Of a stretch of 64,000 bases of DNA, positions 6,803 through 64,000 are shown in pieces. The notes under the pieces are model-generated. The model saw only the letters and a list, made by a program, of their open reading frames with translations. It was not told where the DNA came from and ran no database searches. Position numbers and translations under genes: made by a program. Location: positions 586,433-650,432 of the forward strand of contig JAHRHY010000026.1 of the NCBI GenBank assembly GCA_019671135.1, read 5' to 3'. Origin of the DNA: Linnemannia hyalina. Lineage: Eukaryota > Mortierellomycota > Mortierellomycetes > Mortierellales > Mortierellaceae. The first letter of the stretch is position 1. Each line of letters begins with the position of its first letter.

Positions 6803-7195
6803 ATGCAGATCAAGACCCTCCACACAATCATGGCCCTTTTGCTTACCACGTTCGTCTCGGCTCTGCCCATTGGAAACGACAACGGGATCAACACAGTCAA
6901 TGGCAACGGTGCCCAGCAAATTTATGGAAATCAAAAGACTTCAGAGGATATGAGTCCGCAACTGGGATTGGTTCAGGGGACCTTGAACAAGCTCTGTATT
7001 GGTTTACCAGCGAAAATCAACGCGCAGTCTCTTGTGGCGCTGGTGAACGTCGGCGTACAGGATATCAACGTCCTCTCGAATCCACAGAATCAACAGTGTA
7101 CAGAGAATAGTACGCAAGCCAAGGGCGATGAACCGCTTTCCCATATACTAGACAACATTCCTGTCCTTTCAGGAAATGGTAGTCTCGGGTCCTGA
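6803..7195 (+). CDS. Small secreted protein, unknown function
   Basis: This single-exon frame of 130 codons starts at ATG. Residues 1-21 form a typical signal peptide: a basic start, then a hydrophobic core MALLLTTFVSA ending near SALP. The mature part is asparagine-, glycine- and glutamine-rich, has two cysteines (about residues 70 and 98) and has candidate N-glycosylation sites (NST near 101, NGS near 125). It contains no domain I recognise. The length and signal fit the many small secreted proteins of soil fungi. Non-coding DNA surrounds it, so neighbours give no clue. The end could differ if an intron removes the TGA at 7193, but I see no strong splice pair. Confidence 0.6.
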   Translation: MQIKTLHTIMALLLTTFVSALPIGNDNGINTVNGNGAQQIYGNQKTSEDMSPQLGLVQGTLNKLCIGLPAKINAQSLVALVNVGVQDINVLSNPQNQQCTENSTQAKGDEPLSHILDNIPVLSGNGSLGS

Positions 7196-7999
7196 AACAA
7201 CTAATAGTCACATTCCGCACAGGAAAGCACAAGTTGGCAATAAAGTCCATTCCTCTTCACCAGAAACTATTTAGCCCTAGTATAATAGTATCCATGCTAG
7301 CAAATATTAAACATGATCGTGCTCAGCAGGGTAACCTTTTTTCACATATTTGTTCGCGTGCACCTGTTTGCTCTGTCTTCATTCCTGGCCGTTATCCTTC
7401 TTTACATCTCCACTCAATTGCATTGACCACGTCGAAATTCAACTCCATGCTTAGGAACATCCAAAATCATAAACCATGATGTATGGTGCCGTTCTTGGGA
7501 CACTTCCGATGTCTGGTCCTACGAAAAGGCCAATACTTCACAATATTCCAGCTCCATAAGCAGACTCGAACATCCTGGTATTTTTTGACACACTCCTCTC
7601 CTTCATCGCTTCACTTTGATGTAATCGAATCTAGACGGGGCGGACGGGGATTGGCCTTCCAGTTCTGGAGGACTAACGCAAAGGCAAAGGCAGGACAAGG
7701 GCGTCAGTCTCTTGAGTTAAGGGGTACCAAAAGACGGATAATGATGTTGCAAAAAGATGTGGTGGCTAGGCAGCGGCGGTAACGCCTTAGATTAGCAGTC
7801 ATATTCTTTAGTAGACATAGTACTAGTAGTGCGCCGGGCCCTCTTGTCTGCTCTTTGTCCTTTTGCACACCACTTCTTGGACAAGAGCAGTACTAACAAG
7901 AGTTTCGCTGGCGCGCTGCAGTATATCGTTTGGTGTGATTCTTAGCATGAAGGCTAGCGGAAAGTGGCCGCTGTAGGGACGTTTCGCAATCCGAAGATA
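7196..7999. other. Gene-free stretch
   Basis: I see no gene with family resemblance or codon structure here. The 7483-7782 open frame has low-complexity basic content and no signal. Confidence 0.5.
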
Positions 8000-36219: not shown

Positions 36220-37509
36220 CTACAAATTACCATTAACATCCATTTGTCGCTTCGTACCTCTAAGCTCAATGGAAAGACCGGGTTGCATTATTACTGCTTG
36301 ATCCATTGGTGTGTCCTCATCAACATTAACATCAACATCACCATGAAGATTAATACCAAGAAATTTGTTCTGGAGTTGTGCCATTGTATTTCCATCCTCC
36401 ACTAGCGCACCAACATCAACATATCCCATTGGTTGCTCAACGTCGTTCTCTGTCGTCGGATACTCGAATCCTTCGCGAAGCCAAGCTGTATGAATTGGTT
36501 CTGCAGAAATCTTCAACAAAGCAACCATCTTTTTCATGTTTAAGAGTAACAAAGATAACTTCAACTGCAAATTATATGTTTGTTTCTTATCCACCAACAC
36601 AGGAGTACGGTTGTTGTGTTTCTCAAATGTGGAACCAAGGTCTGCAAACAGAGATTCCATCTGCGAGCGGAAACTACCAAAGGTGGTATTGTATAACGCT
36701 TCTTCCTGTGTAAGTTCCTTGTTCTTCTGTTTACGGTATGGATGAGCGAAATTTTGGACTTTAAGAGTATCAGACTCATCTATAAGCCTCCTTAAGAACT
36801 GTGGATACCCTCCATCGAGAGCAATGCAATCCATCTCATGCACTCTCTTGTCCAACTTCATCGTTAGCAGCATTGTTCCATCAGCATTGTTCTTGCAAGA
36901 TGCAGATTTGGAGACAAATAAAGCCATGCCATTACAATCCATTGCTACCTGTGTGCGTAATCCTGACTTTTTCAGCTTGTAAGAGTACATATCAGCACTA
37001 CTCTCACCTTTGTATGTTGCTCTTGTATCATGACCATCAAGATGCAATGTAACATGCTTAAATAATGGAGGATTCTTTTCCTTTGCAGACAAAAGGCGTA
37101 TTTTAATTGTGGAGAACATTGTTGCAATACAGTTGGTGATGTACTTGTTGTGCAAAGTATATTCTTTCTTATAAAACACAGAGTGCATTGCATGAAAACT
37201 ACTTTTTGGCATGTGTGGTTCCATTGCTTCCATAGACAGTCCTTTGACAAGATGATAGAGCATTAAAAGACCTTTCTCCACTTCTTTGTATGGACCAGGA
37301 TACTTAACCTTTGGCCAGATGTCAACAAGAAAGAAGTACACTGGAATAGGACCAAGGCGTCGATTTAGGGTTTCTTTTATTTCTGGCATATACCCAATTT
37401 CCTTGCTTACAGTACGATGATTATTACGTGGTGTAATTGTTGGCCATCCAGCGTTGAGGAAAGTCCAATGGTCATCAAGCAGTTGTTGGAAGTGTTTTGT
37501 TAGATCCAT
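36220..37509 (-). CDS. PIF/Harbinger-like DDE transposase, copy A
   Basis: Encodes 429 residues from the ATG at 37509 (MDLTKHFQQLL). I prefer this to upstream ATGs because the divergent relative at 60514-61773 starts at the same place (MANLKRLFQRLL). Catalytic candidates are Asp158 or Asp161 in HLDGHDTR, Asp232 in IALDGGYPQ and Glu285 in FRSQMESLFADLG. KSGLRTQVAMD and FAHPYRKQK fit the PIF/Harbinger (DDE_Tnp_4) pattern of S-x-K, PxR and R-x-x-[VM]E. It would cut and rejoin element ends in the nucleus. The C-terminus is acidic (VNVDEDTPMDQ). The frame is intact and about 98% like copies B and C. It is preceded by a U element at 37671 and cut off from its partner gene by the gypsy LTR. Confidence 0.8.
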   Translation of the reverse strand: MDLTKHFQQLLDDHWTFLNAGWPTITPRNNHRTVSKEIGYMPEIKETLNRRLGPIPVYFFLVDIWPKVKYPGPYKEVEKGLLMLYHLVKGLSMEAMEPHMPKSSFHAMHSVFYKKEYTLHNKYITNCIATMFSTIKIRLLSAKEKNPPLFKHVTLHLDGHDTRATYKGESSADMYSYKLKKSGLRTQVAMDCNGMALFVSKSASCKNNADGTMLLTMKLDKRVHEMDCIALDGGYPQFLRRLIDESDTLKVQNFAHPYRKQKNKELTQEEALYNTTFGSFRSQMESLFADLGSTFEKHNNRTPVLVDKKQTYNLQLKLSLLLLNMKKMVALLKISAEPIHTAWLREGFEYPTTENDVEQPMGYVDVGALVEDGNTMAQLQNKFLGINLHGDVDVNVDEDTPMDQAVIMQPGLSIELRGTKRQMDVNGNL

Positions 37510-37670
37510 AATAATATTTATGTATTGGATTGTCATGACGTTAACCAACAATAACAATTTTTTAAAAAGGCTTATACTTAACTGTATACACAACAGCATG
37601 TAGGATGGTATCTATCATACAGCAAGCACATAGTTGAGAATACAAATATATTTTTATATTTTATTCGGTA

Positions 37671-38165: not shown

Positions 38166-38812
38166 TTAGTCCTGACAGGATCCAAGAGCAGATGCTACTG
38201 GACTCTTGGTATGATTATTTCAATCGCAAAAATAAGTGAAACTATACGTTTTCAATACTATAAATATGCCTGAATATGAATAACCATCAAAAAAAATGAA
38301 TCAAGTGGATGTAAATCAATGCAAATGCGAATGCGGATCTAATCAATGCAAATGCGAATGCGAATAATCGCGAATATCATGCAAATGCGAATTATTCGCG
38401 AATAAAATTAATCGCGAATCGAATGCGAATTATCGCGAATCGAATGCGAATTATCGCAAATCGAATGCGAATTATCGCAAATCGAATGCGAATAATCGCG
38501 AATAACATGCAAATGCGAATTAATCGCGTATAGAATTAATCGCGAATCGAATGCGATTAATTGCGAATAACATGCAAATGCGATTTAATCGCGGATGAAA
38601 TTAATCGCGAATCGAATACGATTATTTGCGAATCGAATGCTATTAATTGCGAATCGAATAAATGCGAATTCGAATAACATGCGAATCGAACAAGGCCTTT
38701 ATTCGCAATATGCGAATCGATTGACTGCAGAATTCGTATTCGAGAAATCGAATCGAATGCGAATCGAATTGCGAATATCGAATATTCGTGAGAAACCCTG
38801 CCGATGTTGCTA
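38166..38812. repeat. Low-complexity ATGCGAATTAATCGCGAAT element
   Basis: After about 120 bp of unique AT-rich DNA, 38310-38802 consists of drifting words AATGCGAATTATCGCGAATC and CAAATGCGAATTAATCGCG. The right end is TTCGTGAGAAACCCTG, the inverted form of the AGGGTTTCTCA end at 28536. Probably a relative of that element lying in the opposite orientation. Confidence 0.55.
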
Positions 38813-39846
38813 GGGCATCTAATCGAATCGAATTATCCGAATTCGAATGGGTTCGAATGCATTCAAATCGAATTCGAACTGATATGAATTCGATTCGAAT
38901 TCTAATAGACTTTGTGGATTCGATTCGAATGATTCGAATAATTCGAATGATGCCCCTTGAGTCTTACTCGAATTTGAATAGTTCGAATGGTTCGAATGGT
39001 TCGAGTGGTTCGAATGGTTCGAGTGGTTCGAATGGTTCGAGTGGTTCGAATGGTTCGAGTGGTTCGAATGGTTCGAGTGGTTCGAATACTTTGAATGGTT
39101 CGAATGGTTCGAATGGTTCGAATAGTCCGAATGGTTCGAATGGTTCGAATAGTCCGAATGGTTCGAATGGTTCGAATAGTCCGAATGGTTCGAATGGTTC
39201 GAATAGTCCGAATGGTTCGAATGGTTCGAATGGTTCGAATGGTTCGAATGGTTCGAATAGTCCGAATGGTTCGAATGGTTCGAATGGTTCGAATGGTTCG
39301 AATAGTCCGAATGGTTCGAATGGTTCGAATGGTTCGAATAATTCAAATTCGAATAGGTTCAAATGGTTCGAATGGTTCAAATAATTCGAATTCGAACAGG
39401 TTCAAATGGTTCGAATGGTTCGAATAATTCGAATTCGATTAGGTTCGAATGGTTCGAATAGGTTCGTTTGGTTCGAATACTTCGAATAGGTTCGTTTGGT
39501 TCGAATACTTCGAATTTGAATAGGTTCGAATACTTCGAATTTGAATAGGTTCGAATACTTCGAATTTGAATAGGTTCGAATACTTCGAATTTGAATAGGT
39601 TCGAATACTTCGAATTTGAATAGGTTCGAATACTTCGAATTTGAATAGGTTCGAATACTTCGAATTTGAATAGGTTCGAATGGTTCGAATGGTTCGAATA
39701 ATTCGATTGATTTTGTTCGAATCCAATCGAATCGAATTCGAATTAATACTTCTATTCGGATTCGAATCGAATTCGAACTTACTTTATTCGAACCGAATTC
39801 GAATCTGGCAAAAATCGATTCGAATGATTCGATTAGAAGCCCTACT
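38813..39846. mobile_element. 1.03-kb element of TTCGAATGG words with TAGGGC ends
   Basis: It starts TAGGGCATCTAATCGAATCG and ends GATTCGATTAGAAGCCCTA, an imperfect inverted pair. Between them 38990-39350 is a minisatellite of TTCGAATGG alternating with TTCGAGTGG and TTCGAATAGTCCGAATGG, and 39466-39680 repeats a 27-bp unit GTTCGAATACTTCGAATTTG. TTCGAA is self-complementary, so both strands read alike and open frames appear everywhere. I see no matching 8-bp flanks. Confidence 0.65.
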
Positions 39847-46989: not shown

Positions 46990-47150
46990 TACCGAAAAAA
47001 ATATAAAAATATATTTGTATTCTCAACTATGTGCTTGCTATATGATAGATACCATCCTACATGCTGTTGTGTATGCAGTTAAGTATAAGCCTTTTTAAAA
47101 AATTGTTATTGTTGGTTAACGTCATGACAATCCAATACATAAATATTATT

Positions 47151-48434
47151 ATGGATCTAACAAAACACTTCCAACAACTGCTTGATGACCATTGGACTTT
47201 CCTCAACGCTGGATGGCCAACAATTACACCACGTAATAATCATCGTACTGTAAGCAAGGAAATTGGGTATATGCCAGAAATAAAAGAAACCCTAAATCGA
47301 CGCCTTGGTCCTATTCCAGTGTACTTCTTTCTTGTTGACATCTGGCCAAAGGTTAAGTATCCTGGTCCATACAAAGAAGTGGAGAAAGGTCTTTTAATGC
47401 TCTATCATCTTGTCAAAGGACTGTCTATGGAAGCAATGGAACCACACATGCCAAAAAGTAGTTTTCATGCAATGCACTCTGTGTTTTATAAGAAAGAATA
47501 TACTTTGCACAACAAGTACATCACCAACTGTATTGCAACAATGTTCTCCACAATTAAAATACGCCTATTGTCTGCAAAGGAAAAGAATCCTCCATTATTT
47601 AAGCATGTTACATTGCATCTTGATGGTCATGATACAAGAGCAACATACAAAGGTGAGAGTAGTGCTGATATGTACTCTTACAAGCTGAAAAAGTCTGGAT
47701 TACGCACACAGGTAGCAATGGATTGTAATGGCATGGCTTTATTTGTCTCCAAATCTGCATCTTGCAAGAACAATGCTGATGGAACAATGCTGCTTACGAT
47801 GAAGTTGGACAAGAGAGTGCATGAGATGGATTGCATTGCTCTCGATGGAGGGTATCCACAGTTCTTAAGGAGGCTTATAGATGAGTCTGATATTCTTAGA
47901 GTCCAAAATTTCGCTCATCCATACCGTAAACAGAAGAACAAGGAACTTACACAGGAAGAAGCGTTATACAATACCACCTTTGGTAGTTTCCGCTCGCAGA
48001 TGGAATCTCTGTTTGCAGACCTTGGTTCCACATTTGAGAAACACAACAATCGTACTCCTGTGTTGGTGGATAAGAAACAAACATATAATTTGCAGTTGAA
48101 GTTATCTTTGTTACTCTTAAACATGAAAAAGATGGTTGCTTTGTTGAAGATTTCTGCAGAACCAATTCATACAGCTTGGCTTCGCGAAGGATTCGAGTAT
48201 CCGACAACAGAGAACGACGTTGAGCAACCAATGGGATATGTTGATGTTGGTGCGCTAGTGGAGGATGGAAATACAATGGCACAACTCCAGAACGAATTTC
48301 TTGGTATTAAACTTCATGGTGATGTTGATGTTGATGAGGACACACCAATGGATCAAGCAGTAATAATGCAACCCGGCCTTTCCATTGAGCTTAGAAGTAC
48401 GAATCGACAAATGGATGTTAATGGTAATCTGTAG
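47151..48434 (+). CDS. PIF/Harbinger-like DDE transposase, copy B
   Basis: Encodes 427 residues from ATG 47151. Upstream in-frame ATGs exist at 47061 and about 47124, but the divergent homologue supports this one. The catalytic candidates are those of copy A: HLDGHDTR, IALDGGYPQ and SQMESLFADLG. Differences from A and C are few, such as DILRVQNF for DTLKVQNF and a two-residue loss in the C-terminal VDVDED repeat. A TATA-like TATAAAAATATA lies about 150 bp upstream. The partner gene follows 630 bp downstream in the same direction with its own promoter. Confidence 0.82.
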   Translation: MDLTKHFQQLLDDHWTFLNAGWPTITPRNNHRTVSKEIGYMPEIKETLNRRLGPIPVYFFLVDIWPKVKYPGPYKEVEKGLLMLYHLVKGLSMEAMEPHMPKSSFHAMHSVFYKKEYTLHNKYITNCIATMFSTIKIRLLSAKEKNPPLFKHVTLHLDGHDTRATYKGESSADMYSYKLKKSGLRTQVAMDCNGMALFVSKSASCKNNADGTMLLTMKLDKRVHEMDCIALDGGYPQFLRRLIDESDILRVQNFAHPYRKQKNKELTQEEALYNTTFGSFRSQMESLFADLGSTFEKHNNRTPVLVDKKQTYNLQLKLSLLLLNMKKMVALLKISAEPIHTAWLREGFEYPTTENDVEQPMGYVDVGALVEDGNTMAQLQNEFLGIKLHGDVDVDEDTPMDQAVIMQPGLSIELRSTNRQMDVNGNL

Positions 48435-49065: not shown

Positions 49066-51327
49066 ATGAAGTACGTTCAGCTTACAATCGAGCTCATCAC
49101 CAAGGCCTTTGAGACATTCTCCTCTAAGAAGGGAGTGGAGTTTAACAAGAAAGATGCAAATAAGATCTTTAAGGCGCTTGATGAGGATGAGGAAGTAGAG
49201 AGATACTACTTTTGTGGAGAAAAGTGCACCAAGTCCAAGCGCAAATGCATGAAGGAAGTTGATGATGAAGGCATGCATTGTTATGTCCACGATCCTGCGC
49301 GCAAGTGTCAAGGCACAACTATTAAGGGTGCTAATTGTGGTAGTGTAGCCAAACTTGGTCAAACATACTGTGGACGTCATCAAGATCAAGATAGAGGTTA
49401 TATAAAACGTAGTAACAACAACGCACCTGTCGACAAGCGTACCAAGTCTTCCAAGGCTTTAAAGAAGACACATACTTCTAAGTTTGTGTCTTCCGATGAC
49501 GATATGACTTCCGAGGATGAAGAACCAAAGAAGCGAAAGAGAAACAAGCAGGAGTCATCGGATGAAGAGCCGTCCGATGATGATGATGAAGAAGATATAA
49601 TTGCCGTCTCCTTTCCGTTGAGTCCAAAGGTAGTTGACATAACGTCCAAGAAAAATGTACCACTCGCTAATACATGTATATGGACGCGTTATGCAACTAA
49701 TCCAGCTTTCCTGTATGCAAAAAGCTTTACTGTAAATGGCAAGTACATTATTAGGCTAAAGGAAAAGAATCTCTACATTGCATTGTGTCCACCTAAGCTC
49801 ATGGGCAAGAATCTCCCTGCGCCAGAAATATCTGAGAAAGAGGCACGCATATTGGCCAAGATGGGTCTTCAAGAGGCAACTTCAGCAGATGTAGAAAAAA
49901 TAGAAGAGTCTTCTGCTGATGAGAATTCTGACGATGATACAGATGATGGTGATACGTCTGATAATGCTGACTCTGACGATGATTCCTCTAAAGATAAAGA
50001 CTCTGATGATGGCAAGTCCAATAACAGATCTGATGTAGAATCTGGAGATGATACCTCTAAGGATAACCCTGATGAAAAACTATCTCATAAAAAGCCATCT
50101 AAGGATGATGAGAAGAAGACTTCTCGAAAGAAAAGGCATTCAGAGATGCCCAAAAATGCAGAGCCATCTTCTAATGTAGATGTTTCTAAGGATGAAAAAG
50201 ATGAACACACATTTGCACTGGCCACAACGGTGCGTAACATTAGATCAGAGAAAGACATACCACTTGCAAAGGATGGAGGATGGATGGTTCATCCTAATAA
50301 CGACATGCTTGAGTATGCAACTAACTTTACGATGAAGGCTAAGTACATTGTCAAGCTATGTGGAAAGAATACATACGTTGGCCTGTTTACGCTTGATCAT
50401 CTGCGTGGCGGTGGTGATGTTCCAGAGATGGATATCTTGGAACGCTCCATGCTTAGCAAGATGAAACTTCAAGAAATGTCTGATGAAGAGAGAAAGATGC
50501 TTTTCAACGAGGAGGTCGAAGTAGAAGAGGAACTACCAGTGGAAGGACCGACAGATATATCCAAGATGAAATGGAAAAGGTTTCACAAGCAGCAATTGGA
50601 GTATTCCAAGAATGTACTTGTAAATGGAAAGCACATTCTCAAGATCCGCAAGCAAAACATTGTAGTTGGCTTGGTGACTGATGACCACATTAGTGCAGAG
50701 AATGTCGACTATGATAATCTTAACCAAAAGGAAAAAGAAAAGATCTTCGCTATGGGCTTTAAGCCACAATGGTCTAAGGATAGGTCGACAGAGAAAGGTG
50801 AACCGGTAGAAAAAATAGATGATGAGGTGCAAGAGTCGAATATTAAGGAAACTTTAGATGAACTTGTAGAAAAAGTAGATGATGAGGTGCAAGAGTCGGA
50901 TGTTAAGAAAACTCTAGAAGATGGTGGACCTATGGAAAGCGAAAATGTGAATGCCTCAAGTGTTTACACTACAAAAGACCATCATGATTTTCTGAAGGCA
51001 ATGGGAGAAGTATATAGCAAAATAACAGCTATCGAAGAAGAACTCCGCGAGGAATACGTTTCGGCAGATGGTAATGCAGAAGAAAAAGAACTAATTTTTC
51101 ACCTAGGTTTGTTGGAGAAAGATTATTCCAACTACGAAACATGGCACATGGATAAGTTTGGTTCCCGCGAACCACATTCCGATATATTATGTAAGTTTGC
51201 AAAAGAAGGATCTAACAACAGAAAAACCATAGTGCAAAGTGTATTAGATAGTATTCAAGCCAAAGAGAAAAGTACGATGGAAGAAAAGAAGCCTCTTGAA
51301 GTAACATTTGAGACCGCAGAAGAGTAG
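49066..51327 (+). CDS. Large acidic protein with CCCH zinc-finger modules, partner gene of the transposase
   Basis: Encodes 753 residues. Residues 1-44 form a small helical region. Two zinc-binding modules share spacing: C54-x6-C61-x10-C72-x2-H75 and C81-x9-C91-x10-C102-x2-H105 (KCQGTTIKGANCGS, YCGRH). A lysine/serine/aspartate linker precedes three copies of an approximately 80-residue module at about 186-270, 386-470 and 499-567, each with a YA..FTVNGKYI(I/V).L..KN.YV.L core and a KMGLQ-like end. A strongly acidic stretch (about 283-355) separates modules 1 and 2. Near 595-640 a VEKxDDEVQES repeat occurs twice. The CQGTT..G..C.......YC.RH finger resembles short modules I associate with giant-virus proteins. 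By position it replaces the Myb-like second protein of PIF/Harbinger elements. I infer a DNA-binding partner of the transposase, without direct proof. Confidence 0.7.
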   Translation: MKYVQLTIELITKAFETFSSKKGVEFNKKDANKIFKALDEDEEVERYYFCGEKCTKSKRKCMKEVDDEGMHCYVHDPARKCQGTTIKGANCGSVAKLGQTYCGRHQDQDRGYIKRSNNNAPVDKRTKSSKALKKTHTSKFVSSDDDMTSEDEEPKKRKRNKQESSDEEPSDDDDEEDIIAVSFPLSPKVVDITSKKNVPLANTCIWTRYATNPAFLYAKSFTVNGKYIIRLKEKNLYIALCPPKLMGKNLPAPEISEKEARILAKMGLQEATSADVEKIEESSADENSDDDTDDGDTSDNADSDDDSSKDKDSDDGKSNNRSDVESGDDTSKDNPDEKLSHKKPSKDDEKKTSRKKRHSEMPKNAEPSSNVDVSKDEKDEHTFALATTVRNIRSEKDIPLAKDGGWMVHPNNDMLEYATNFTMKAKYIVKLCGKNTYVGLFTLDHLRGGGDVPEMDILERSMLSKMKLQEMSDEERKMLFNEEVEVEEELPVEGPTDISKMKWKRFHKQQLEYSKNVLVNGKHILKIRKQNIVVGLVTDDHISAENVDYDNLNQKEKEKIFAMGFKPQWSKDRSTEKGEPVEKIDDEVQESNIKETLDELVEKVDDEVQESDVKKTLEDGGPMESENVNASSVYTTKDHHDFLKAMGEVYSKITAIEEELREEYVSADGNAEEKELIFHLGLLEKDYSNYETWHMDKFGSREPHSDILCKFAKEGSNNRKTIVQSVLDSIQAKEKSTMEEKKPLEVTFETAEE

Positions 51328-52293: not shown

Positions 52294-52454
52294 TACCGAA
52301 AAAAATATAAAAATATATTTGTATTCTCAACTATGTGCTTGCTATATGATAGATACCATCCTACATGCTGTTGTGTATGCAGTTAAGTATAAGCCTTTTT
52401 AAAAAATTGTTATTGTTGGTTAACGTCATGACAATCCAATACATAAATATTATT

Positions 52455-53744
52455 ATGGATCTAACAAAACACTTCAAACAACTGCTTGATGACCATTGGA
52501 CTTTCCTCAACGCTGGATGGCCAACAATTACACCACGTAATAATCATCGTACTGTAAGCAAGGAAATTGGGTATATGCCAGAAATAAAAGAAACCCTAAA
52601 TCGACGCCTTGGTCCTATTCCAGTGTACTTCTTTCTTGTTGACATCTGGCCAAAGGTTAAGTATCCTGGTCCATACAAAGAAGTGGAGAAAGGTCTTTTA
52701 ATGCTCTACCATCTTGTCAAAGGACTGTCTATGGAAGCAATGGAACCACACATGCCAAAAAGTAGTTTTCATGCAATGCACTCTGTGTTTTATAAGAAAG
52801 AATATACTTTGCACAACAAGTACATCACCAACTGTATTGCAACAATGTTCTCCACAATTAAAATACGCCTTTTGTCTGCAAAGGAAAAGAATCCTCCATT
52901 ATTTAAGCATGTTACATTGCATCTTGATGGTCATGATACAAGAGCAACATACAAAGGTGAGAGTAGTGCTGATATGTACTCTTACAAGCTGAAAAAGTCA
53001 GGATTACGCACACAGGTAGCAATGGATTGTAATGGCATGGCTTTATTTGTCTCCAAATCTGCATCTTGCAAGAACAATGCTGATGGAACAATGCTGCTAA
53101 CGATGACGTTGGACAAGAGAGTGCATGAGATGGATTGCATTGCTCTCGATGGAGGGTATCCACAGTTCTTAAGGAGGCTTATAGATGAGTCTGATACTCT
53201 TAAAGTCCAAAATTTCGCTCATCCATACCGTAAACAGAAGAACAAGGAACTTACACAGGAAGAAGCGTTATACAATACCACCTTTGGTAGTTTCCGCTCG
53301 CAGATGGAATCTCTGTTTGCAGACCTTGGTTCCACATTTGAGAAACACAACAACCGTACTCCTGTGTTGGTGGATAAGAAACAAACATATAATTTGCAGT
53401 TGAAGTTATCTTTGTTACTCTTAAACATGAAAAAGATGGTTGCTTTGTTGAAGATTTCTGCAGAACCAATTCATACAGCTTGGCTTCGCGAAGGATTCGA
53501 GTATCCGACGACAGAGAACGACGTTGAGCAACCAATGGGATATGTTGATGTTGGTGCGCTAGTGGAGGATGGAAATACAATGGCACAACTCCAGAACAAA
53601 TTTCTTGGTATTAATCTTCATGGTGATGTTGATGTTAATGTTGATGAGGACACACCAATGGATCAAGCAGTAATAATGCAACCCGGTCTTTCCATTGAGC
53701 TTAGAGGTACGAAGCGACAAATGGATGTTAATGGTAATCTGTAG
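52455..53744 (+). CDS. PIF/Harbinger-like DDE transposase, copy C
   Basis: Encodes 429 residues from ATG 52455, intact. Catalytic blocks are as in copy A. It shares with A the DTLKVQNF text, the longer VDVNVDED tail and, downstream, the 37-bp tandem duplication, so A and C are closer to each other than to their neighbour B. The tandem was therefore not made by one recent local duplication of B. Confidence 0.82.
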   Translation: MDLTKHFKQLLDDHWTFLNAGWPTITPRNNHRTVSKEIGYMPEIKETLNRRLGPIPVYFFLVDIWPKVKYPGPYKEVEKGLLMLYHLVKGLSMEAMEPHMPKSSFHAMHSVFYKKEYTLHNKYITNCIATMFSTIKIRLLSAKEKNPPLFKHVTLHLDGHDTRATYKGESSADMYSYKLKKSGLRTQVAMDCNGMALFVSKSASCKNNADGTMLLTMTLDKRVHEMDCIALDGGYPQFLRRLIDESDTLKVQNFAHPYRKQKNKELTQEEALYNTTFGSFRSQMESLFADLGSTFEKHNNRTPVLVDKKQTYNLQLKLSLLLLNMKKMVALLKISAEPIHTAWLREGFEYPTTENDVEQPMGYVDVGALVEDGNTMAQLQNKFLGINLHGDVDVNVDEDTPMDQAVIMQPGLSIELRGTKRQMDVNGNL

Positions 53745-54418: not shown

Positions 54419-55941
54419 ATGCAGTACGTTCAGCTTACAATCGAGCTCATCACCAAGGCCTTCGAGACATTTTCTTCTAAGAAGGGAGTGGAGTTTACCA
54501 AGAAAGATGCAAATAAGATTTTTAAGGCGCTTGATGGGGATAAGGAAGTGGAGAGATACTACTTTTGTGGAGCAAAGTGCGTCAAGTCCAAGCGTAAATG
54601 CATGAAGGAAGTTGACGATGAAGGCATGCATTGTTATGTCCACGATCCTGCGCGCAAGTGTCAAGGCACAACCATTAAGGGCGCTAATTGTGGTAGTGTA
54701 GCCAAAATTGGTCAAACATACTGTGGGCGTCATCAAGATCAAGATAGAGGTCATATAAAACGTGGTAACAAGAATGCACCTGTCGTTACGCGTCCCAAGT
54801 CTTCCAAGGCTTTAAAGAAGACACATACTTCTAAGTTTGTATCATCTGATGACGATATGACTTCCGAGGATGAAGAGCCGTCCGACGATGATGATGAAGA
54901 AGATAAAATTGCCGTCTCCTTTCCGTTGAGTCCAAAGGTAGTTGACATAACGTCCAAGAAAAATGTACCACTCGCTAATACAGGCATATGGATGCGTTAT
55001 GCAACTAATCCAGCTTTTCTGTATGCAAAGAACTTTACTGTAAATGGCAAGTACATTATTAAGCTGAAGGAAAAGGATCTCTACGTTGTATTGTGTCCAC
55101 CTGAGCTCATGGGCAAAAATCTTCCTGTACCGGAAATATCTGAAAAAGAGGCACGTATATTACAAAAGATGGGACTCCAAGAGGCAACTCCTGCAGATGT
55201 AGAAAAAATAGAAGAGTCTTCTGCTGATGATAAGAAGAAGACTCTTCGAAAGAAAAGGCCTTCAAAGATGCCCAAAAATGCAGAGCCATCTTCTAATGTA
55301 GACGTTTCTAAGGATGGAAAAGATGAACATACATTTGCACTGGCCACAACGGTGCATAACATTAGATCAGAGAAAGACATAGCACGTGCGAAGGACAGAG
55401 GATGGATGATTCATCCTAATAACGACATGCTTGAGTATGCAACTAAGTTTACGATGAATGGCAAGTACATTGTCAGGCTATCTGGAAAGAATACATACGT
55501 TGGCCTGTTTACGCTTGATGCTCTGCGCGGTGTCGGTGATGTTCCAGAGTTGGATATCTTGGAACGCTCCATGCTTAGCAAGATGAAACTTCAACCATTG
55601 TCTGATGAAGAAGAAAGACGCTTTTCAACGAGGAGATCGAAGTAGAAGAAGAAGTACCAGTAGAAGGACCAACAGATAAATCCAAGGTGATATGGAAAAA
55701 ACTTAACAAGTACTTGGAATATTCCGAGAATGTACTTGTAAATGGAATGCACATTCTCAAGATGCGCAAAAAAGACACTGTAATCGGCTTGATGACTGAT
55801 GACCATATTGCTGCAGAGAATGTAGAATGTCATTCTCTTAGCCAGAAGGAAAAAGAGAAGTTGTTTGCTATGGGATTTAAACCGCATGAGCATAAGCAAA
55901 GCTTGCCACAGAAAGATGAGAGCACATGTGAGGATGATAAA
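54419..55941 (+). pseudogene. Zinc-finger partner gene of unit C, frameshifted and truncated
   Basis: Matches the protein of unit B from the start (MQYVQLTIELITKAF). Both zinc-finger modules are kept (C54, C61, C72, H75 and the CQGTTIKG...YCGRH module). The acidic stretch between modules 1 and 2 is deleted. A one-base shift near 55610 ends the first frame at 55645. Module 3 continues in another frame (LVNGMHILKMRKKDTVIGLM). The V element at 55942 removes the C-terminal part. A TATA box GTATAAATAAAGG lies at about 54196. Probably inactive, though an N-terminal product of 408 residues with both fingers could still be made. Confidence 0.8.
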
Positions 55942-56392
55942 GGAGGCCATCCATGTTCGGCTCCACCAACCATAGACTACAGTATAAAAATATCTGTCAA
56001 CACCTATTAAAACAGTGTGTTCCTTGAGAGTACAACAAATCTCATCAGCTTTTTCCTTCCACCAGTCTCCATTTTCTACATTCACCACCACTACTTTGTA
56101 ACATCATCTACTTTAGCTGAGAAAGCCTTGGACATGATCATCTCATATTGGATCCTAGATATTACAGATAGTAATTTCCTTTCCAATATGAGATGATCAT
56201 GTCCAAGGCTTTCTCAGCTAAAGTAGATGATGTTACAAAGTAGTGGTGGTGAATGTAGAAAATGGAGACTGGTGGAAGGAAAAAGCTGATGAGATTTGTT
56301 GTACTCTCAAGGAACACACTGTTTTAATAGGTGTTGACAGATATTTTTATACTGTAGTCTATGGTTGGTGGAGCCGAACATGGATGGCCTCC
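55942..56392. mobile_element. V element: 451-bp near-perfect palindrome
   Basis: Begins GGAGGCCATCCATGTTCGGC and ends with its complement. Arms of about 208 bp surround a short loop (TCCTAGATATTACAGATAGT). It contains no gene. Partial copies at 29687 and 42260 show it also exists apart from the large element. The GGAGGCC end is shared with U. Confidence 0.85.
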
Positions 56393-58379
56393 TAGTAGAG
56401 CATTTGTTTTCGTGTTTATATAATTAGCGATGGTTACTAATATCTCCTTTTCATGATATATCCTATGTGTATATCCAATATAGCACTCGTGATACTGGTG
56501 ATGATGTAGTGGTAGTTTTAAAAAAAAGTTGGATCCCGATTTTTTAAAAAAGTAGCATAGTGGCTTTAACAAACATTGGTTGTTGGAAAGAAAGGGTAGC
56601 TGATACGTTTTTAATGGCGTTATTGCTACACTTTCTCAACAATATTCGACATTCGACATTTGACATTCGGCATTCGATTCGACAGCTGACAAACTGTAGT
56701 TATTACCACAGTTATGATATTTGATATGAACGCATTTTGGATTACCTCGTGATTATTGTGATGTTTAATTTTAATACATTCTTGATAAACTCGTAAGTAT
56801 TACAATGTTTAATGTTGACATACTTTAGGTAAGCCCACGATTTGCACGACGTTTAATATTATTACACTTTGGTTGACTTACAATTGTTATAGCATTTATT
56901 GTTATACAGATTGTAGGTAATTACGACAATGGTAAAAACAGAGATATCGCAATTAGACCATGTATTGTGGGTAGTTGTAGATATAACAATTATATCGTTT
57001 AAAATAGACGTTCTTAAAACACATCACATATTTTATAATGCAAATGGCTATTATATTACAACGTTTCTATTGCATTTTGTGTGATAACAAGATAGAAAAA
57101 ATGTGTTGTTAATAGAGTAATTATATCGTTAAAAATAGACGTTTCTTAAAACACATCACATATTTCGTGATGCAAATGGGTATGAACATTGTAACATTTC
57201 TATCGCATTTTGTGTGATAATAAGGTAGAGAAAATGTGTTGTTAACAGAGTAATCATGTCGTTTAAAATAGACGTTTCTTAAAACGTATCACATATTTCG
57301 TGATGCAAATGGGTATGAACATTGTACCTTTCTATCGCATTTTGTGATAATAAGGTAGAGAAAATGTGTTGTTTAAAGAGCAATTATGTCGTTAAAAATA
57401 GACGTTTCTTAAAACACATCACATATTTCGTGATGCAAATGGGTATGAACATTGTAACATTTCTATCGCATTTTGTATAATAACAAGACAGAAAAATGTA
57501 TTGTTAACAGAGTAATTATGTCGTTTAAAATAGACGTTTCTTAAAACGTATCACATATTTCGTGATGCAAATGGGTATGAACATCGTGGCGTTTCTCTCG
57601 CATTTTGTGTGATAATAAGGTAGAGAAAATGTGTTGTTAACAGAGTAATTATGTCGTTTAAAATAGACGTTTCTTAAAACGTATCACATATTTCGTGATG
57701 CAATGGGTATGAACATTGTGACATTTCTATCGCATTTTGTGTGATAACAAGACAGAAAAAATGTGTTGTTAACAGAGTAATTATGTCGTTTAAAATAGAC
57801 GTTTCTTAAAACGTATCACATATTTCGTGATGCAAATGGGTATGAACATTGTGACATTTCTATCGCATTTTGTGTGATAATAAGAGAGAAAATGTGTTGT
57901 TAAAGTTATGTCGTTTAAAATAGACGTTTCTTAAAACACATCACATATTTCGTGATGCAAATGGGTATGAACATTGTACATTTCTATCGCATTTTGTGTG
58001 ATAACAAGACAGAAAAAGAAGTTGTTAACAGAATAATTATGTCGTTTAAAATAGACGTTTCTTAAAACGTATCCCATATTTCGTGATGCAAATGGGTATG
58101 AACATTGTGACATTTCTATCGCATTTTCTGTGATAACAAGACAGAAAAAGAAGTTGTATAAATAAAAGTTATGTAGACTTAGGAAATGTCTATAAAATAT
58201 CGTTTGTATACTTTGGTGGTTGGGAGAAAATTGGTGGTTACAAAAAAGTTGTCGCAAAACCGCCATGATGAAATACTTTGACATCTGGTTGAGGGGCTTG
58301 CTCCCTATCGTGTTTATCGTTAATAGTTTTAAAAAATCCAAAAGTGTGTTATATAAAGGAATTTTTGCTAATAGTTTAC
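56393..58379 (+). repeat. Left inverted arm
   Basis: Starts TAGTAGAGCATTTG and ends GCTAATAGTTTAC. Besides the repeat array it contains a TCGACATTCGACATTTGAC segment (56646-56685) and, at its inner end, a TATA box (TATATAAAG at 58350). Confidence 0.85.
56995..58160 (+). repeat. Tandem array, nine copies of about 132 bp (left arm)
   Basis: The word TCGTTTAAAATAGACG or TCGTTAAAAATAGACG recurs near 56995, 57126, 57259, 57389, 57522, 57654, 57786, 57910 and 58042. Each unit contains CATCACATATTTCGTGATG, or a variant of it, an inverted repeat with 6-bp arms, a likely protein-binding site. Confidence 0.85.
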
Positions 58380-58525
58380 GTTTAAATTCTCTTGAAATAG
58401 ATGATATATGCATTATATTTCTATCCAATCTATCATGGAATATGAGATAACTTCTTTTATAGTGCAACAAATCTAAAAGTGTATTGTAGTATAGGCATTC
58501 TTCCTAATGGTTTACTAGTTATGCA

Positions 58526-58771
58526 ATGCCAACACTTAAAGAAATTAAGCAAATAATAGCCATTTATATACATGAGCATCATATGCATCCTACAATGGCA
58601 ATGTACTTGAGAGCTGTTTTGTTACGTGGTAAGTCTCAGCAAGAACTTAATGGTATGTCAAAGGAAGAACTGTGGGGATTAGTAGACTTTTTTGCACCAG
58701 ATTTACAAAAACATATGCATACAATTGGTGCATTATCATGGTCAGCATACCAAAAATTTGCTTCAGAGTAA
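58526..58771 (+). CDS. Small protein of 81 residues, unknown
   Basis: ATG at 58526, first gene inside the left arm. The sequence is largely helical with histidines near the start (IYIHEHHMHPTMAMYL) and a KSQQELNGMSKEELWGLVDF helix. No family recognised. It lies about 170 bp after the arm's TATA box. A drifted second copy of the arm's last 60 bp (AAATCTAAAAGTGTATTGTA) precedes it directly and may be its own promoter. Confidence 0.5.
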   Translation: MPTLKEIKQIIAIYIHEHHMHPTMAMYLRAVLLRGKSQQELNGMSKEELWGLVDFFAPDLQKHMHTIGALSWSAYQKFASE

Positions 58772-58825
58772 AGTGGTTTTTAAAAAGTTTGTAGTACATA
58801 TCTCTGCAAACAGTAAGCTTTCAAC

Positions 58826-60476
58826 ATGTCCGCTATACCTAAATCCATTAACAAGGCGCTGAACTCATATGCCCATCTTATCTCTGATGTGGGCAAAGAG
58901 ATTGCATTGCCTGGCAAACCGAAGACTGGCTGGAAAAAGTACTCAGAGATATTCTGCGATAGTTTAATACTCTGGGGATTGCACAACCGGGCTGCACTTG
59001 TTGACGAGCAGCGCAAAAACACCACTTCCAATATTCGCGAAGCTTTTAAAGACCTCGATGTTAGCCACTCCATGGTTAAAGTTGTTAACGAGGGTTATAT
59101 CAAAGACAATAGTTTTTTTAGCTCTAAACTACTAGAAAAACATAGAAAAAAGTTTAGAAGTACGGCCTTATACCATGCAGGATATTTCAGCATTAAGGTA
59201 ACGCTCAATGAACTGGAGGCCATCTCTTTAATTTCCGAGTTACCACCAATATTTCATGAGCTTGAGGTTGACTATGTTATCTCCATGATATAGACATTGC
59301 TACGGATTGTAGATATGTTACAAGCCGTCCAATTCTTCAGCAATACCTTCAAGAGAGATTTGGAGAAGATTTGGATATTGCCGACGATCTCCATAAGGTT
59401 GGTAACCACTGTCTCTCTTGGTTTGGAGTCACCGAAAAAGACCAAAAGGTCCGTTGTAAGGTTTATAACAAACTTGTACAGATGTTGGAGAGTGCTGAAG
59501 TAAAAATGTCGTTGGGTTCAAGAATGGAAATTTTGTTATGGATGTGGATAAGGACCTACATAAGAGACTTCGAAAGGCGAAGAAAACAGGTCTAACAAGA
59601 CTTGAACTTACCTTTTATGGACAGGAGATATATACATTCTCCTATTATAAAGGAGTCTTGGATGCCATAAAGGAAGAGATCCAAGAATGTCCCACCTTCT
59701 GCGTAAAACACAAGGCATATTGGAAGTATATAGTTGGTAATATATCATCCATGGTAGGTATTCATGTAACAATGGGTGAAAAATCGGCATTCGCATATTG
59801 CCATTGGTGGAACTCTGTTACAGGTAAGAAGTATGGTTCATATCGTAACAATGTCGAGAAAGAGGAAGCAATGACGTTGTTAGCCAACTATAGCTTCAAC
59901 GATAGACCAATATACTTTTTGGAGGTTGAGATGGATGAGAATAGCATCAAGGATATTACAGTTACCAAGTACAAACGGCCTGACGAATGTACAGCAATAA
60001 CACTTGTTGCAGGAGCACATAAAGGCATGTACCCATACATTTACGATGATGATGTTTTACAATTCGAGGATATGGGTATAGTGGAGGTGGATAATGTAAA
60101 GATCCAATGGCCTGAGAGAAGAATCCGCAAAGGTGCACCACCAATTGTTGATATTCATCTAGAAAACATGAATGGTGAGAATTTTATACAAGTCCATGAT
60201 AGAGCTATCCACAAAGCAACATACAAAGCTGGATATAATGTACTTGAAATAAATACCAGCTATACAGTCATAGCAATTGCAATGGATATGTATCACAACA
60301 AAGAATATATTTTTGCAACATTGTCCAATGGTATTAAAGTACGATGTGGACTTAGTTTAGAAACAAAGATCGTTGCATGGCTGGAAGAATATCCCGATGG
60401 CCAAGTTCCGTATATGAATTTCACCACATTGCAATGCAGAACTGTTCGCGGGTTCAAGGATATTTATATACGTTAA
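58826..60476 (+). pseudogene. Gene of about 550 codons, replication-initiator-like features, two frameshifts
   Basis: Three frames connect end to end: 58826-59293, about 59284-59534 and about 59530-60476. The joins are single-base shifts, the first near 59285 and the second in the GAAATTTTG run near 59530. The order of recognisable text is an N-terminal helical part, an acidic DIDIATD segment, HKVGNHCLSWFGV, a VRCKVYNKLVQMLES segment with a YNK motif, and GLTRLELTFYG. A charged C-terminal domain to 60476 includes FAYCHWWNSVTGKKYGS. A YNK-then-glutamate block followed by R-x-E is reminiscent of phage and plasmid replication initiators. I could not identify an HUH motif. The function is unproven. 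Other readings are an unknown DNA-binding cargo gene or a gene with introns that I cannot place. Confidence 0.5.
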
Positions 60477-60513
60477 GAATGCTAATAGATAGTTTTTAAA
60501 AATTACAATGGGC

Positions 60514-61773
60514 TTACTTTGTACGCTTATATGATGGAATCTCCACTCCTGCAAAAATTTCACGTCGCTTATTAGTCGGCTCTTCCCGTTGTTTATCCTC
60601 GACATCCATAGTAGTCATCTCCAAGAACTGCTCTTGTAACTTTGTTATATCTCGTGCATCATGCAACATCTCATCCACTGGAATATAATCCAAGATTTGT
60701 TCCATTGCACCATTGGCATATGGAAAGTCGAAGCCATCTCTAATCCAGGCACTATGAATGGGTTCCAGATTTAACTGCAGTAGTGCCACCATCTTCTTGA
60801 TGTTCATAAGCAAGAGACACAATCGCAATTGCAAATTATATGTTTCTATCTTGGTTACCAACACTGGTTTCCTATTGTTGTGCTTCTCAAAGGTTGCTCC
60901 AAGATCTCCAAATTCGGCTTCTATCTGAGAGCGGAAACTGCCGAAAATCTTATTGTAGTTAGTTTCATCTTGTGCAAGATCTTTCCCACGGCTTTTGCGA
61001 ATTGGATAACAAAAGTTTTTCTTGCTCATGCTTGTTTCTTCTACTATTTTCTTAATGTATTGTGTGTACCCTCCATCCAATGCAATACAATCTAGCTCGT
61101 GGATGTGCTTATGTATCTTCATACCAACCAACATAGTACCATCGTTGTTATCCTTGCAAGGTAGCGATTTAGAGACTAGTATTGCCATGCCATTGCAATC
61201 GACACACACTTGCGTTCTTACACCAGATTTCTTCAGCTTGTAAGAGTACATGTCTGAGCTAGACTTTTCTTCACATGAAAGACGTGTATCATGACCATCC
61301 AAATGCAATGTTACATGTGGGAATAGTGGTGGATTCCTGAGTTTAGCAGAAATCAAGCGTATAGGAAATGTGGAGAACATATTCGCAAGTGCATGGTTAA
61401 TATGCTTCGAATGCACATTATAGTTAGTCTTGTAGAACTCTGTATGAATGGAGTGGAAACTACTTTTTGGTATGTGGGTTGACATTCCATCCATTGCCAA
61501 GCCTGCAACTAAGTGGTACAATATCAACAATCCTTTGTCGACTTCTCTGTATGGACCTGGATACTGCTTGAGAGACCAAATAACTACAAGAAAGTAGAAT
61601 ACAGGAATTGCACCTAATCTTCTTATAAGTAAGTCTTTAACAGTTTTCATGTGTGCTACTAGCTTCAACGCAGTCCTATGATTATTGGATGGTTCTTGCG
61701 TAGGCCATTCTGCATCCAAAAAAGTCCATTCATCCTCTAACAACCGTTGAAATAGGCGCTTTAAGTTTGCCAT
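60514..61773 (-). CDS. Divergent PIF/Harbinger-like DDE transposase of the foldback element
   Basis: Encodes 419 residues from ATG 61773 (MANLKRLFQRLL) on the minus strand, convergent with the preceding gene (37 bp between stops). It aligns over its length with copies A-C at perhaps half identity: HLDGHDTR (Asp), IALDGGYTQ (Asp) and FRSQIEAEFGDLGATFEKHN (Glu), with KSGVRTQVCVDCNGMA and FCYPIRKSRGK between them. All catalytic candidates are kept and the frame is open. The ATG lies only 19 bp inside the right arm and about 39 bp from the arm's TATATAAAG box, so the arm itself is the promoter. The C-terminal tail is different from that of A-C (basic, TNKRREIF). Confidence 0.8.
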   Translation of the reverse strand: MANLKRLFQRLLEDEWTFLDAEWPTQEPSNNHRTALKLVAHMKTVKDLLIRRLGAIPVFYFLVVIWSLKQYPGPYREVDKGLLILYHLVAGLAMDGMSTHIPKSSFHSIHTEFYKTNYNVHSKHINHALANMFSTFPIRLISAKLRNPPLFPHVTLHLDGHDTRLSCEEKSSSDMYSYKLKKSGVRTQVCVDCNGMAILVSKSLPCKDNNDGTMLVGMKIHKHIHELDCIALDGGYTQYIKKIVEETSMSKKNFCYPIRKSRGKDLAQDETNYNKIFGSFRSQIEAEFGDLGATFEKHNNRKPVLVTKIETYNLQLRLCLLLMNIKKMVALLQLNLEPIHSAWIRDGFDFPYANGAMEQILDYIPVDEMLHDARDITKLQEQFLEMTTMDVEDKQREEPTNKRREIFAGVEIPSYKRTK

Positions 61774-61811
61774 GACTGTAATTACAACCTGGTAAACTAT
61801 TAGCAAAAATT

Positions 61812-61821
61812 CCTTTATATA
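61812..61821 (-). promoter_or_regulatory. TATA box in the inner end of the right arm
   Basis: TATATAAAGG on the minus strand, 39 bp before the transposase ATG; the mirror copy at 58350-58359 points towards the 81-residue gene. Confidence 0.6.
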
Positions 61822-62019
61822 ACACACTTTTGGATTTTTTAAAACTATTAACGATAAACACGATAGGGGAACAAGCCCCTCAACCAGATGTCAAAGTATT
61901 TCATCATGGCGGTTTTGCGACAACTTTTTTGTAACCACCAATTTTCTCCCACCACCAAAGTATACAAACGATATTTTATAGACATTTCCTAAGTCTACAT
62001 AACTTTTATTTATACAACT

Positions 62020-63180
62020 TCTTTTTCTGTCTTGTTATCATACAAAATGCGATAGAAATGTCACAATGTTCATACCCATTTGCATCACGAAATATGGGAT
62101 ACGTTTTAAGAAACGTCTATTTTAAACGACATAGTTATCTTTAAACAACACTTTTCTCCTTCTTTTATCACACAAAATGCATAGAAATGTCACAATGTTC
62201 ATACCCATTTGCATCACGAAATATGTGATGTGTTTTAAGAAACGTCTATTTTAAACGACATAATCTCTGTTAACAACTTCTTTTTTCTACTTTTATCACA
62301 CAAAATGCGATAGAAATGTCACAATGTTCATACCCATTTGCATCACGAAATATGTGATACGTTTTAAGAAACGTCCATTTTAAACGACATAATTACTCTG
62401 TTAACAACACATTTTTCTACTTATTATCACACAAAATGCGATAGAAATGTCACAATGTTCATACCCATTTGCATCACGAAATATGTGATAAGTTTTAAGA
62501 AACGTCTATTTTAAACGACATAATTACTCTGTTAACAACACATTTTCTCTACTTATTATCACACAAAATGCGATAGAAATGTCACATGTTCATACCCATT
62601 TGCATCACGAAATATGTGATACGTTTTAAGAAACGTCCATTTTAAACGACATAATTACTCTGTTAACAAACATTTTTCTGTCTTGTTATTATACAAAATG
62701 CGATAGAAAGTACAATGTTCATACCCATTTGCATCACGAAATATGTGATGTGTTTTAAGAAACGTCTATTTTTAACGACATAATTGCTCTTTAACAACAC
62801 ACATTTTTCTACCTTTATCACACAAAATGCGATAGAAAGTCACAATGTTCATACCCATTTGCATCACGAAATATGTGATACGTTTTAAGAAACGTCTATT
62901 TTAAACGACATAATTACTCTGTTAACAACACATTTTTCTCTCTTATTATACACAAAATGCGATAGAAATGTTACAATGTTCATACCCATTTGCATCACGA
63001 AATATGTGATGTGTTTTAAGAAACGTCTATTTTTAACGACATAATTACTCTATTAACAACACATTTTTTCTATCTTGTTATCACACAAAATGCAATAGAA
63101 ACGTTGTAATATAATAGCCATTTGCATTATAAAATATGTGATGTGTTTTAAGAACGTCTATTTTAAACGATATAATTGTT
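62020..63180 (-). repeat. Tandem array, nine copies of about 132 bp (right arm)
   Basis: The complement of the left-arm array. The word CGTCTATTTTAAACGACATA or its variant recurs nine times. Copy number equals the left arm. Confidence 0.85.
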
Positions 63181-63768
63181 ATATCTACAACTACCCACAA
63201 TGCATGGTCTAATTGCGATATCTCTGTTTTTACCATTGTCGTAATTACCTACAATCTGTATAACAATAAATGCTATAACAATTGTAAGTTAACCAAAGTG
63301 TAATAATATTAAACGTCGTGCAAATCGTGGGCTTACCTAAAGTATGTCAACATTAAACATTGTAATACTTACGAGTTTATCAAGAATGTATTAAAATTAA
63401 ACATCACGATAATCACGAGGTATCCAAAATGCGTTCATATCAAATATCATAACTATGGTAATAACTACAGTTTGTCAGCTGTCGAATCGAATGCCGAATG
63501 TCAAATGTCGAATGTCGAATATTGTTGAGAAAGTGTAGCAATAACGCCATTAAAAACGTATCAGCTACCCTTTCTTTCCAACAACCAATGTTTGTTAAAG
63601 CCACTATGCTACTTTTAAAAAATCGGATCCAACTTTTTTTTAAAACTACCACTACATCATCACCAGTATCACGAGTGCTATATTGGATATACACATAGGA
63701 TATATCATGAAAAGGAGATATTAGTAACCATCGCTAATTATATAAACACGAAAACAAATGCTCTACTA

Positions 63769-64000
63769 GGAGGCCATCCATGTTCGGCTCCACCAACCAT
63801 AGACTACAGTATAAAAATATCTGTCAACACCTATTAAAACAGTGTGTTCCTTGAGAGTACAACAACTCTCATCAGCTTTTTCCTTCCACCAGTCTCCATT
63901 TTCTACATTCACCACCACTACTTTGTAACATCATCTACTTTAGCTGAGAAAGCCTTGGACATGATCATCTCATATTGGATCCTGGATATTACAGATAGTA
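63769..64000. mobile_element. V element, right copy, cut by the window end
   Basis: GGAGGCCATCCATGTTCGGC onward, same as 55942-56173 with one or two changes (CAACAACTCTCATC for CAACAAATCTCATC; TCCTGGATATT for TCCTAGATATT). Confidence 0.85.

Follow-up and report, generated by a model that had tools for sequence, protein, structure and literature searches.

A PIF/Harbinger-related transposon of Linnemannia hyalina with palindromic ends that also occur alone and a partner protein predicted to be Rep_trans-like

Introduction

How does a transposon with a PIF/Harbinger-related transposase come to lie between kilobase inverted arms, next to a second gene that recalls a replication initiator? The question is raised by an element that begins at position 55942 of the window, the 64,000-nucleotide stretch of Linnemannia hyalina DNA analysed here (contig C19:586433-650432), and runs to the end of it. 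On balance we favour the reading that this is a transposon of the PHIS type, the superfamily that includes PIF/Harbinger, with 451-bp palindromic ends that also occur solo, and that its second gene, the partner gene, encodes a Rep_trans-like tyrosine nickase, predicted from motifs and structure models, that probably nicks hairpins extruded by the ends. The genome comprises 51.5 Mb in 50 contigs (labelled C). Fetched stretches are labelled L0xx, with L021-L039 being 19 element copies with their flanks; genome counts are lower bounds, since scoring was restricted to the best candidates.

Results

Architecture of the element

The left flank of the window copy reads AAA (55939..55941), and the same insertion on C5 (L031) is flanked by AAA on both sides, which marks a 3-bp target duplication. 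The element opens with a terminal palindrome of 451 bp (55942..56392; GGAGGCC...GGCCTCC), equal in length in other copies, which has a 212-bp stem and a 29-nt centre. Its tip (29-31 nt; 56152..56182) is invertible between copies. Inside the palindrome follows the left arm (56393..58379) with nine repeat units of 131-132 bp (approximately 56989-58150) and, at its inner end, the putatively promoter-like TATATAAAG (58350..58358, + strand). The core contains an 81-aa open reading frame (ORF) without family match (58526..58771, +), the Rep_trans-like partner gene (58826..60476, +), whose frame is broken in this copy, and an intact DDE_Tnp_4 transposase gene (60514..61773, −) of 419 aa from the first ATG. 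The right arm (61792..63768) again has nine units of the same period and bears a second putative promoter-like TATATAAAG at its inner end (61813..61821, −), and the right terminal palindrome (63769..64000) is cut inside its tip by the contig end.

An earlier note, made from the letters of this DNA, had described near-perfect inverted arms, each with nine repeats and an inner TATA box, around an 81-residue ORF, a broken second gene and an intact PIF/Harbinger-related DDE transposase. The arms of the window copy indeed pair with 99% complementarity, the paired blocks measuring 480, 367 and 201 nt; the repeat count and the box hold in both arms, and the ORFs together with the DDE_Tnp_4 match agree with the proposed core. 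What the note had called an outer V is half of the 451-bp palindrome. The term foldback fits in part: the inverted arms are real, and the description is incomplete because the ends are self-contained palindromes that also occur solo, with tips in either orientation. Including the palindrome, arms span 1,917-2,449 bp in the measured copies, excluding a value of 1,048 bp in the rearranged L030, and the core between them 3,410-3,426 bp (3,923 bp in L036). The number of repeat units varies between genomic copies.

Genomic copies and target duplications

The transposase is present in 36 copies at 99-100% identity over at least 426 of 437 residues and without stops (96 scored from 306 candidates); three of these are identical contig-end copies. 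Genome-wide, 21 element pairs with both ends were found, so the refuting condition that the note had named, the lack of a second copy sharing arms and core, does not hold. The second V and the 3-bp duplication, which in the window would lie beyond the contig end, are seen in other copies. Among the 19 fetched copies, six have both ends and lie between identical 3-bp flanks, which read CAT, TAG, AAA, ATG, ATA and TTA; four of the six are 7,797 bp long and the other two 8,321 and 8,028 bp. An exact 160-bp empty site was found elsewhere for three: that of L033 lies in a zinc-finger gene of the window (50196-50355), that of L035 in the other gene for a PIF-like transposase that the window contains (36728-36887) and that of L021 in L038. 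No empty site was found for L022 or L036, and for L031 the matches were messy and limited to its own flank. L028, which has a shortened palindrome, lacks a target duplication, and the remaining fetched copies have one or both ends missing, joined or beyond the fetched stretch.

Taken with 15 solo palindromes, the six two-ended copies give 21 duplications, with misses at L028, L061 and L062. TTA or TAA accounts for nine of the 21, the others being AAA, AAG, CAA, TTT, TAG, CAT, ATG and ATA. One palindrome is common to neighbouring elements at C13 and C27, as is a shortened one at C9. The C13 pair was considered as a replication dimer of one insertion and this was dropped, the outer flanks being TAA and ATA. 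One further transposase copy (G000:C2:2030-3340), with 89% identity and seven stops, belongs to an older layer or has been mutated.

Solo palindromes

The tip sequence occurs 100 times in the genome, 94 times exactly and otherwise with one or two mismatches, while 72 inner palindrome-arm junctions were found, 71 of them exact. Tips without an adjoining arm junction number 38 of the 100. Twenty of these were fetched; 16 have both termini 451 bp apart and four lack one or both ends. Identical 3-bp flanks border 14 of the 16, and for these 14 duplicated solos three exact empty sites were found, a fourth at 96.9% and a weak fifth at 78%. A further solo in L030 has TTA on both sides, and solo L058 sits within a copy of the same element. 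Each end module thus occurs as a 3-bp-duplicated unit by itself. Solo palindromes could arise either by transposition or by recombination between ends; for the solos of KolobokP elements in animals, the authors argue for both (parts of PMC9587614).

Several palindromes depart from this pattern. In L024, L028 and L078 (C9, C33) they are 93 bp shorter and the tip is absent, with termini otherwise intact. In L030 (C15:812826-821736) the same target flank and TTA precede both an element end (414-865) and a solo palindrome (6753-7204), 6.3 kb apart, an arrangement that looks as if target flank and end had been copied jointly. A 6,790-bp TTA/TTA span in L030 was rejected as an element, because the palindrome on its right is the solo, which is bordered by a separate copy of that flank. 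Tips, including that at 56152-56182, hold ATTAC-AGATA-GTAAT with a 5-bp mini-stem. The TATTAC string in the tip resembles the geminivirus origin nonanucleotide with one mismatch, and this may be chance.

Tip orientation and likeness of the arms

Read from outside to inside, the tips of arm-joined palindromes are in orientation F in 34 cases and B in 30 (n = 64; at eight of the 72 junctions the tip could not be read). Both tips are readable in 16 of the 21 two-ended pairs, as FF in five, BB in five, BF in four and FB in two, and the two orientations within an element are not associated (Fisher P 0.36, n = 16).

Arms are alike within most measured copies. With the tip excluded, the two arms of L021, L022, L031 (2,417 bp) and L033 show no substitutions, with single-base gaps in L021, L022 and L033, and those of L036 differ by one substitution and a 266-bp step. 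Between other pairs of copies there are up to 102 substitutions and whole steps of 132 or 266 bp. The tips of L031, L033 and L036 are nonetheless mutually inverted despite near-identical arms, and the left arms of L022 and L024 have no substitutions, one single-base gap and opposite tips. Tips have therefore been inverted in these copies while nearly no base changed. The arms of L035 differ by 24 substitutions; a RIP-like (repeat-induced point mutation) origin of these was dropped, the substitution types being mixed.

The transposase and its superfamily

The transposase matches DDE_Tnp_4 (PF13359) with an E-value of 2.5e-7 and 30.9 bits against a cut-off of 24.8. This was its sole match at E up to 1, and the transposase family of Mutator-like elements (MULE) was not matched. 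Judged from the sequence, the transposase and the 3-bp duplication make the element a member of the PHIS superfamily (PIF/Harbinger, ISL2EU, Spy, Pangu and Nuwa, as treated in parts of PMC4482050), with which it shares DDE_Tnp_4, the 3-bp duplication made by most of its groups, a two-gene core and an initial GG. By the same evidence it is placed outside PIF/Harbinger proper by its partner gene, by the strict TWA target (present in nine of 21 duplications) and by the length of its ends. In the same parts of PMC4482050, about 93% of PIF/Harbinger terminal repeats are shorter than 60 bp and a Myb/SANT protein serves as partner, whereas the present ends, terminal palindrome included, reach 1.9-2.4 kb and no Myb/SANT match was obtained for the partner. 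Pfam searches gave none either for the 81-aa ORF or, at E up to 5, for the partner, and Myb/SANT was absent from the 25 listed of 41 weak families for 59 partner relatives.

The partner protein

The partner gene is split into separate frames in the window. An intact ORF of 586 codons is present in L033, and 29 of 37 full-length genomic matches have a full open frame. D81, D193, E297, Y250, K252 and Q255 of the partner are near-invariant columns (at least 90% conserved). The partner is predicted to have most of the catalytic set of the Rep_trans class (pT181/pSTK1), in the same order and spacing, with a compatible fold. The YNK and RLE blocks, which the earlier note had likened to replication initiators, find their counterpart in the Rep_trans active site. 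Rep_trans initiators (PF02486) include those of pSTK1 and pT181, the ICEBs1/Tn916 relaxases and those of many inoviruses (parts of PMC4797284 and PMC5714925). The likeness lies in how the catalytic residues are ordered and spaced around the Tyr, D-x-A-x-D and R-x-E blocks, and the predicted placement of strands and helices would be compatible. A motif string, composed after the family had been seen, fits 32, 36 and 27 of the 59 relatives in its three versions. Every version fits 10 of the 13 references, and no version fits any of the 120 transposases. The middle version turned up a single time among 200,000 shuffles, the one that includes the published W/L 117 times.

Several results weigh against this assignment. 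The motif I Arg is Asp in the partner, A195 is absent from the conserved list, motif II matches poorly and the stretch from the Tyr to R-x-E is longer. No Pfam match to Rep_trans (PF02486) was obtained for the partner or its relatives, nor anywhere in the genome at E ≤ 1; B. subtilis, used as a positive control, did match. Profile-profile comparison with Rep_trans by hhalign was not significant, and in a trimmed comparison the best match, the Tyr block, had a P of 0.14 over 13 columns. In the fold lists TBP and ribosomal S6 rank above Rep, 4cij is not among the best 50 rows for the second partner model, and Foldseek gave no PDB match for the partner models at E ≤ 0.001. The predicted Rep link rests on motifs and a compatible fold, with no significant hidden Markov model or profile-profile match to the family.

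Other searches did not place the protein. A viral structure library returned nine matches at E ≤ 0.001, all unnamed or uncharacterized, and the inovirus G2P replication protein at E 2.8e-3. The H-hydrophobic-H motif of HUH enzymes is not conserved, the conserved His columns being only H190 and H363, far apart. Pfam and PHROGs scans found no family for the partner or the 81-aa ORF, a PDB sequence search with the single protein and with profile A1 gave no match for the partner, and tblastn of the partner, run on plasmid records (72,556) and phage records (50,697), gave a single chance match in each set, at E 6 and E 8. Named relatives of the partner come from Haplosporangium, Mortierella, Podila, Linnemannia, Actinomortierella and Gryganskiella, which belong to Mortierellaceae. 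A widened protein search with an alignment gave 104 proteins and likewise did not place the partner; one of the 104 is labelled as a Nitrososphaerales metagenome-assembled genome and was taken as a mis-binned contig. P0090 (747 aa, 55 member sequences, source not named) is an Asn/Lys-rich distant relative with 27% identity over 381 residues, so the family may reach beyond Mortierellaceae.

A short-ended sister family

On C33, L040 contains the same convergent gene pair, with a partner of 567 aa and a transposase of 426 aa, inside a 20-nt inverted repeat (258-277 and 3712-3731) around approximately 3.5 kb. Long arms are absent, no clear target duplication was seen, and a 90-aa ORF without significant similarity occupies the place of the 81-aa ORF. 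The earlier note had called the partner a cargo gene; since this sister family has the same pair, chance cargo seems unlikely. In Haplosporangium bisporale the transposase (BGZ52_005333) and the partner (BGZ52_005334) have adjacent tags. When 88 of 89 partner rows were compared by source-contig size with 118 of 120 listed transposase rows, 12 of the 88 matched a transposase row (shifted controls: mean 2.5, maximum 7). The adjacency and these coincidences indirectly suggest that the pair is common in Mortierellaceae. Because L040 has the same genes with short ends, the arms and palindromes seem to be a later addition to a PHIS element that was otherwise an ordinary one with two genes.

Discussion

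In the mechanism we propose, the DDE transposase would cut at the GGAGGCC termini, so that the whole element or a single palindrome could move, much as in a composite transposon. The palindromes would extrude as hairpins and the partner would nick the extruded tip, after which the inverted counterpart may serve as template for re-copying one end or arm; such re-copying would maintain the likeness of the arms, both in sequence and in number of repeats, and would invert the tip. One of the two proteins may bind to the repeat units, and the arms may supply twin promoters that would drive the two gene blocks. A more far-reaching version, a two-enzyme cycle in which a Rep_trans-class initiator replicates the element through its terminal hairpins, with tip flips and arm re-copying, and the PIF-type DDE enzyme inserts the copies, like an integrating parvovirus without a capsid, is offered as a decidedly tentative extension. 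A DDE/rolling-hairpin hybrid of this kind is possible. The 24 substitutions between the arms of L035 and the 266-bp differences in L036 and L028 speak against the proposed mechanism, and the different single-base alleles carried by the two tips of L031 and of L036 point to exchange between copies, against a strict replication model.

In a rival account the element is a cut-and-paste PHIS transposon with long inverted arms in which host recombination, as gene conversion between inverted repeats and among roughly 100 palindromes, passively produces flipped tips and identical arms, end-to-end recombination yields the solos, and the partner is a transposase helper like the Myb-type partners of relatives. 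Such conversion by the host is a reasonable competitor of the replication model: the palindromes are numerous and near-identical, tips in one element can differ by a base, neighbours share a palindrome at C13 (where the outer flanks differ), C27 and, shortened, C9, and PHIS elements usually have a DNA-binding partner protein (parts of PMC4482050). Against it, the partner keeps catalytic-looking near-invariant columns and lacks a Myb/SANT match, and the two arms of one element match each other even at places where further copies diverge by numerous substitutions and entire repeat units. We regard this account as a whole as somewhat unlikely. That the Rep_trans-like blocks are structural or coincidental seems improbable, and a TBP-like factor is retained as a rival for the partner. 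Arms and tips produced by hairpin reads or collapsed repeats would accord with the ending of C6, C19 and C23 at one base of an identical 8,384-bp stretch inside the tip, and with four of 14 contig-end stretches lying in arms or palindrome (C1 right, C2 left, C4 left and C44 left). Yet two-ended copies lie inside contigs with differing flanks, duplications and exact empty sites, solo palindromes have duplications of their own and repeat-unit numbers vary between copies, which makes an assembly artefact very improbable.

Long inverted arms with internal tandem repeats are typical of Drosophila FB and MULE foldback elements, from which the present element differs in its DDE_Tnp_4 transposase and in terminal palindromes that also occur solo. 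Parvoviruses such as adeno-associated virus (AAV) have terminal palindromes with tips in two orientations and in all four combinations. The present element shares these features with such hairpin ends (for AAV, parts of PMC5714925), whereas here no HUH Rep was recognised, nor a capsid gene in the core, and integration is of the DDE type with target duplication. A similar layout is that of KolobokP (parts of PMC9587614), which also has two end modules of approximately 450 bp with their own termini, solos with target duplications, modules common to neighbouring elements, and a transposase with a predicted nuclease. The element itself is not KolobokP, whose transposase belongs to another superfamily, whose modules are direct repeats with short inverted tips rather than full palindromes, and whose nuclease is of the His-Me finger type rather than Rep_trans-like. 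Long inverted arms are an addition here, and in Pfam neither a Kolobok transposase nor a His-Me finger nuclease was matched, the transposase being DDE_Tnp_4 and the partner matching no nuclease family.

A literature search that included parts of PMC6668415 and PMC12730594, with Repbase Reports and most subscription journals outside its scope, found no description of this combination in the titles and abstracts listed. Rep_trans-class tyrosine initiators were found described only from bacteria and their phages, on plasmids or in phages, whereas the present element is a fungal transposon. PIF-type transposons are described with a Myb-like helper (parts of PMC4482050); here the helper's place is taken by a protein with a predicted active-site signature of plasmid rolling-circle initiators, and the ends resemble those used in hairpin replication. 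If correct, this would represent a second route, besides HUH enzymes, for bacterial-type initiators into eukaryotic mobile DNA. It would also provide a testable, virus-free hairpin-copying system and explain the identity of kilobase inverted arms, with the short-ended sister family in the same genome as a before-and-after comparison.

Genomic surroundings

The last base of C19 is window base 64000. Because three contigs stop at one identical base, this end was read as an assembly break. A hairpin telomere was considered for it and dropped, given the shared stop base and repeats of the TTTTTTAGGG type at other ends. This 10-bp telomere-like repeat, rather than plain TTAGGG, is carried by three of the 14 contig-end stretches: L079 (C1:1-300, left), L084 (C33:1-300, left) and L090 (C4:1918300-1918592, right). 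The element family is concentrated near contig ends, with 27 of the 36 full transposase copies within 100 kb of one, seven farther away and two at a distance not known; no more than 19% of the genome lies that near to an end.

The window also contains three copies (36220-37599, 47061-48434 and 52365-53744) of another family of PIF-like transposases, which is approximately 56% identical to the first and has at least 92 scored genomic matches. Two of these precede a gene for a Cys/His-rich, acidic protein of the 753-aa type (49066-51327 and 54419-55645), and one such gene is interrupted by the element. Satellite-like arrays with 9-, 25- and 65-bp units (GAATCG/GAATGG type) lie at 38341-39699, close to where the window becomes AT-rich.

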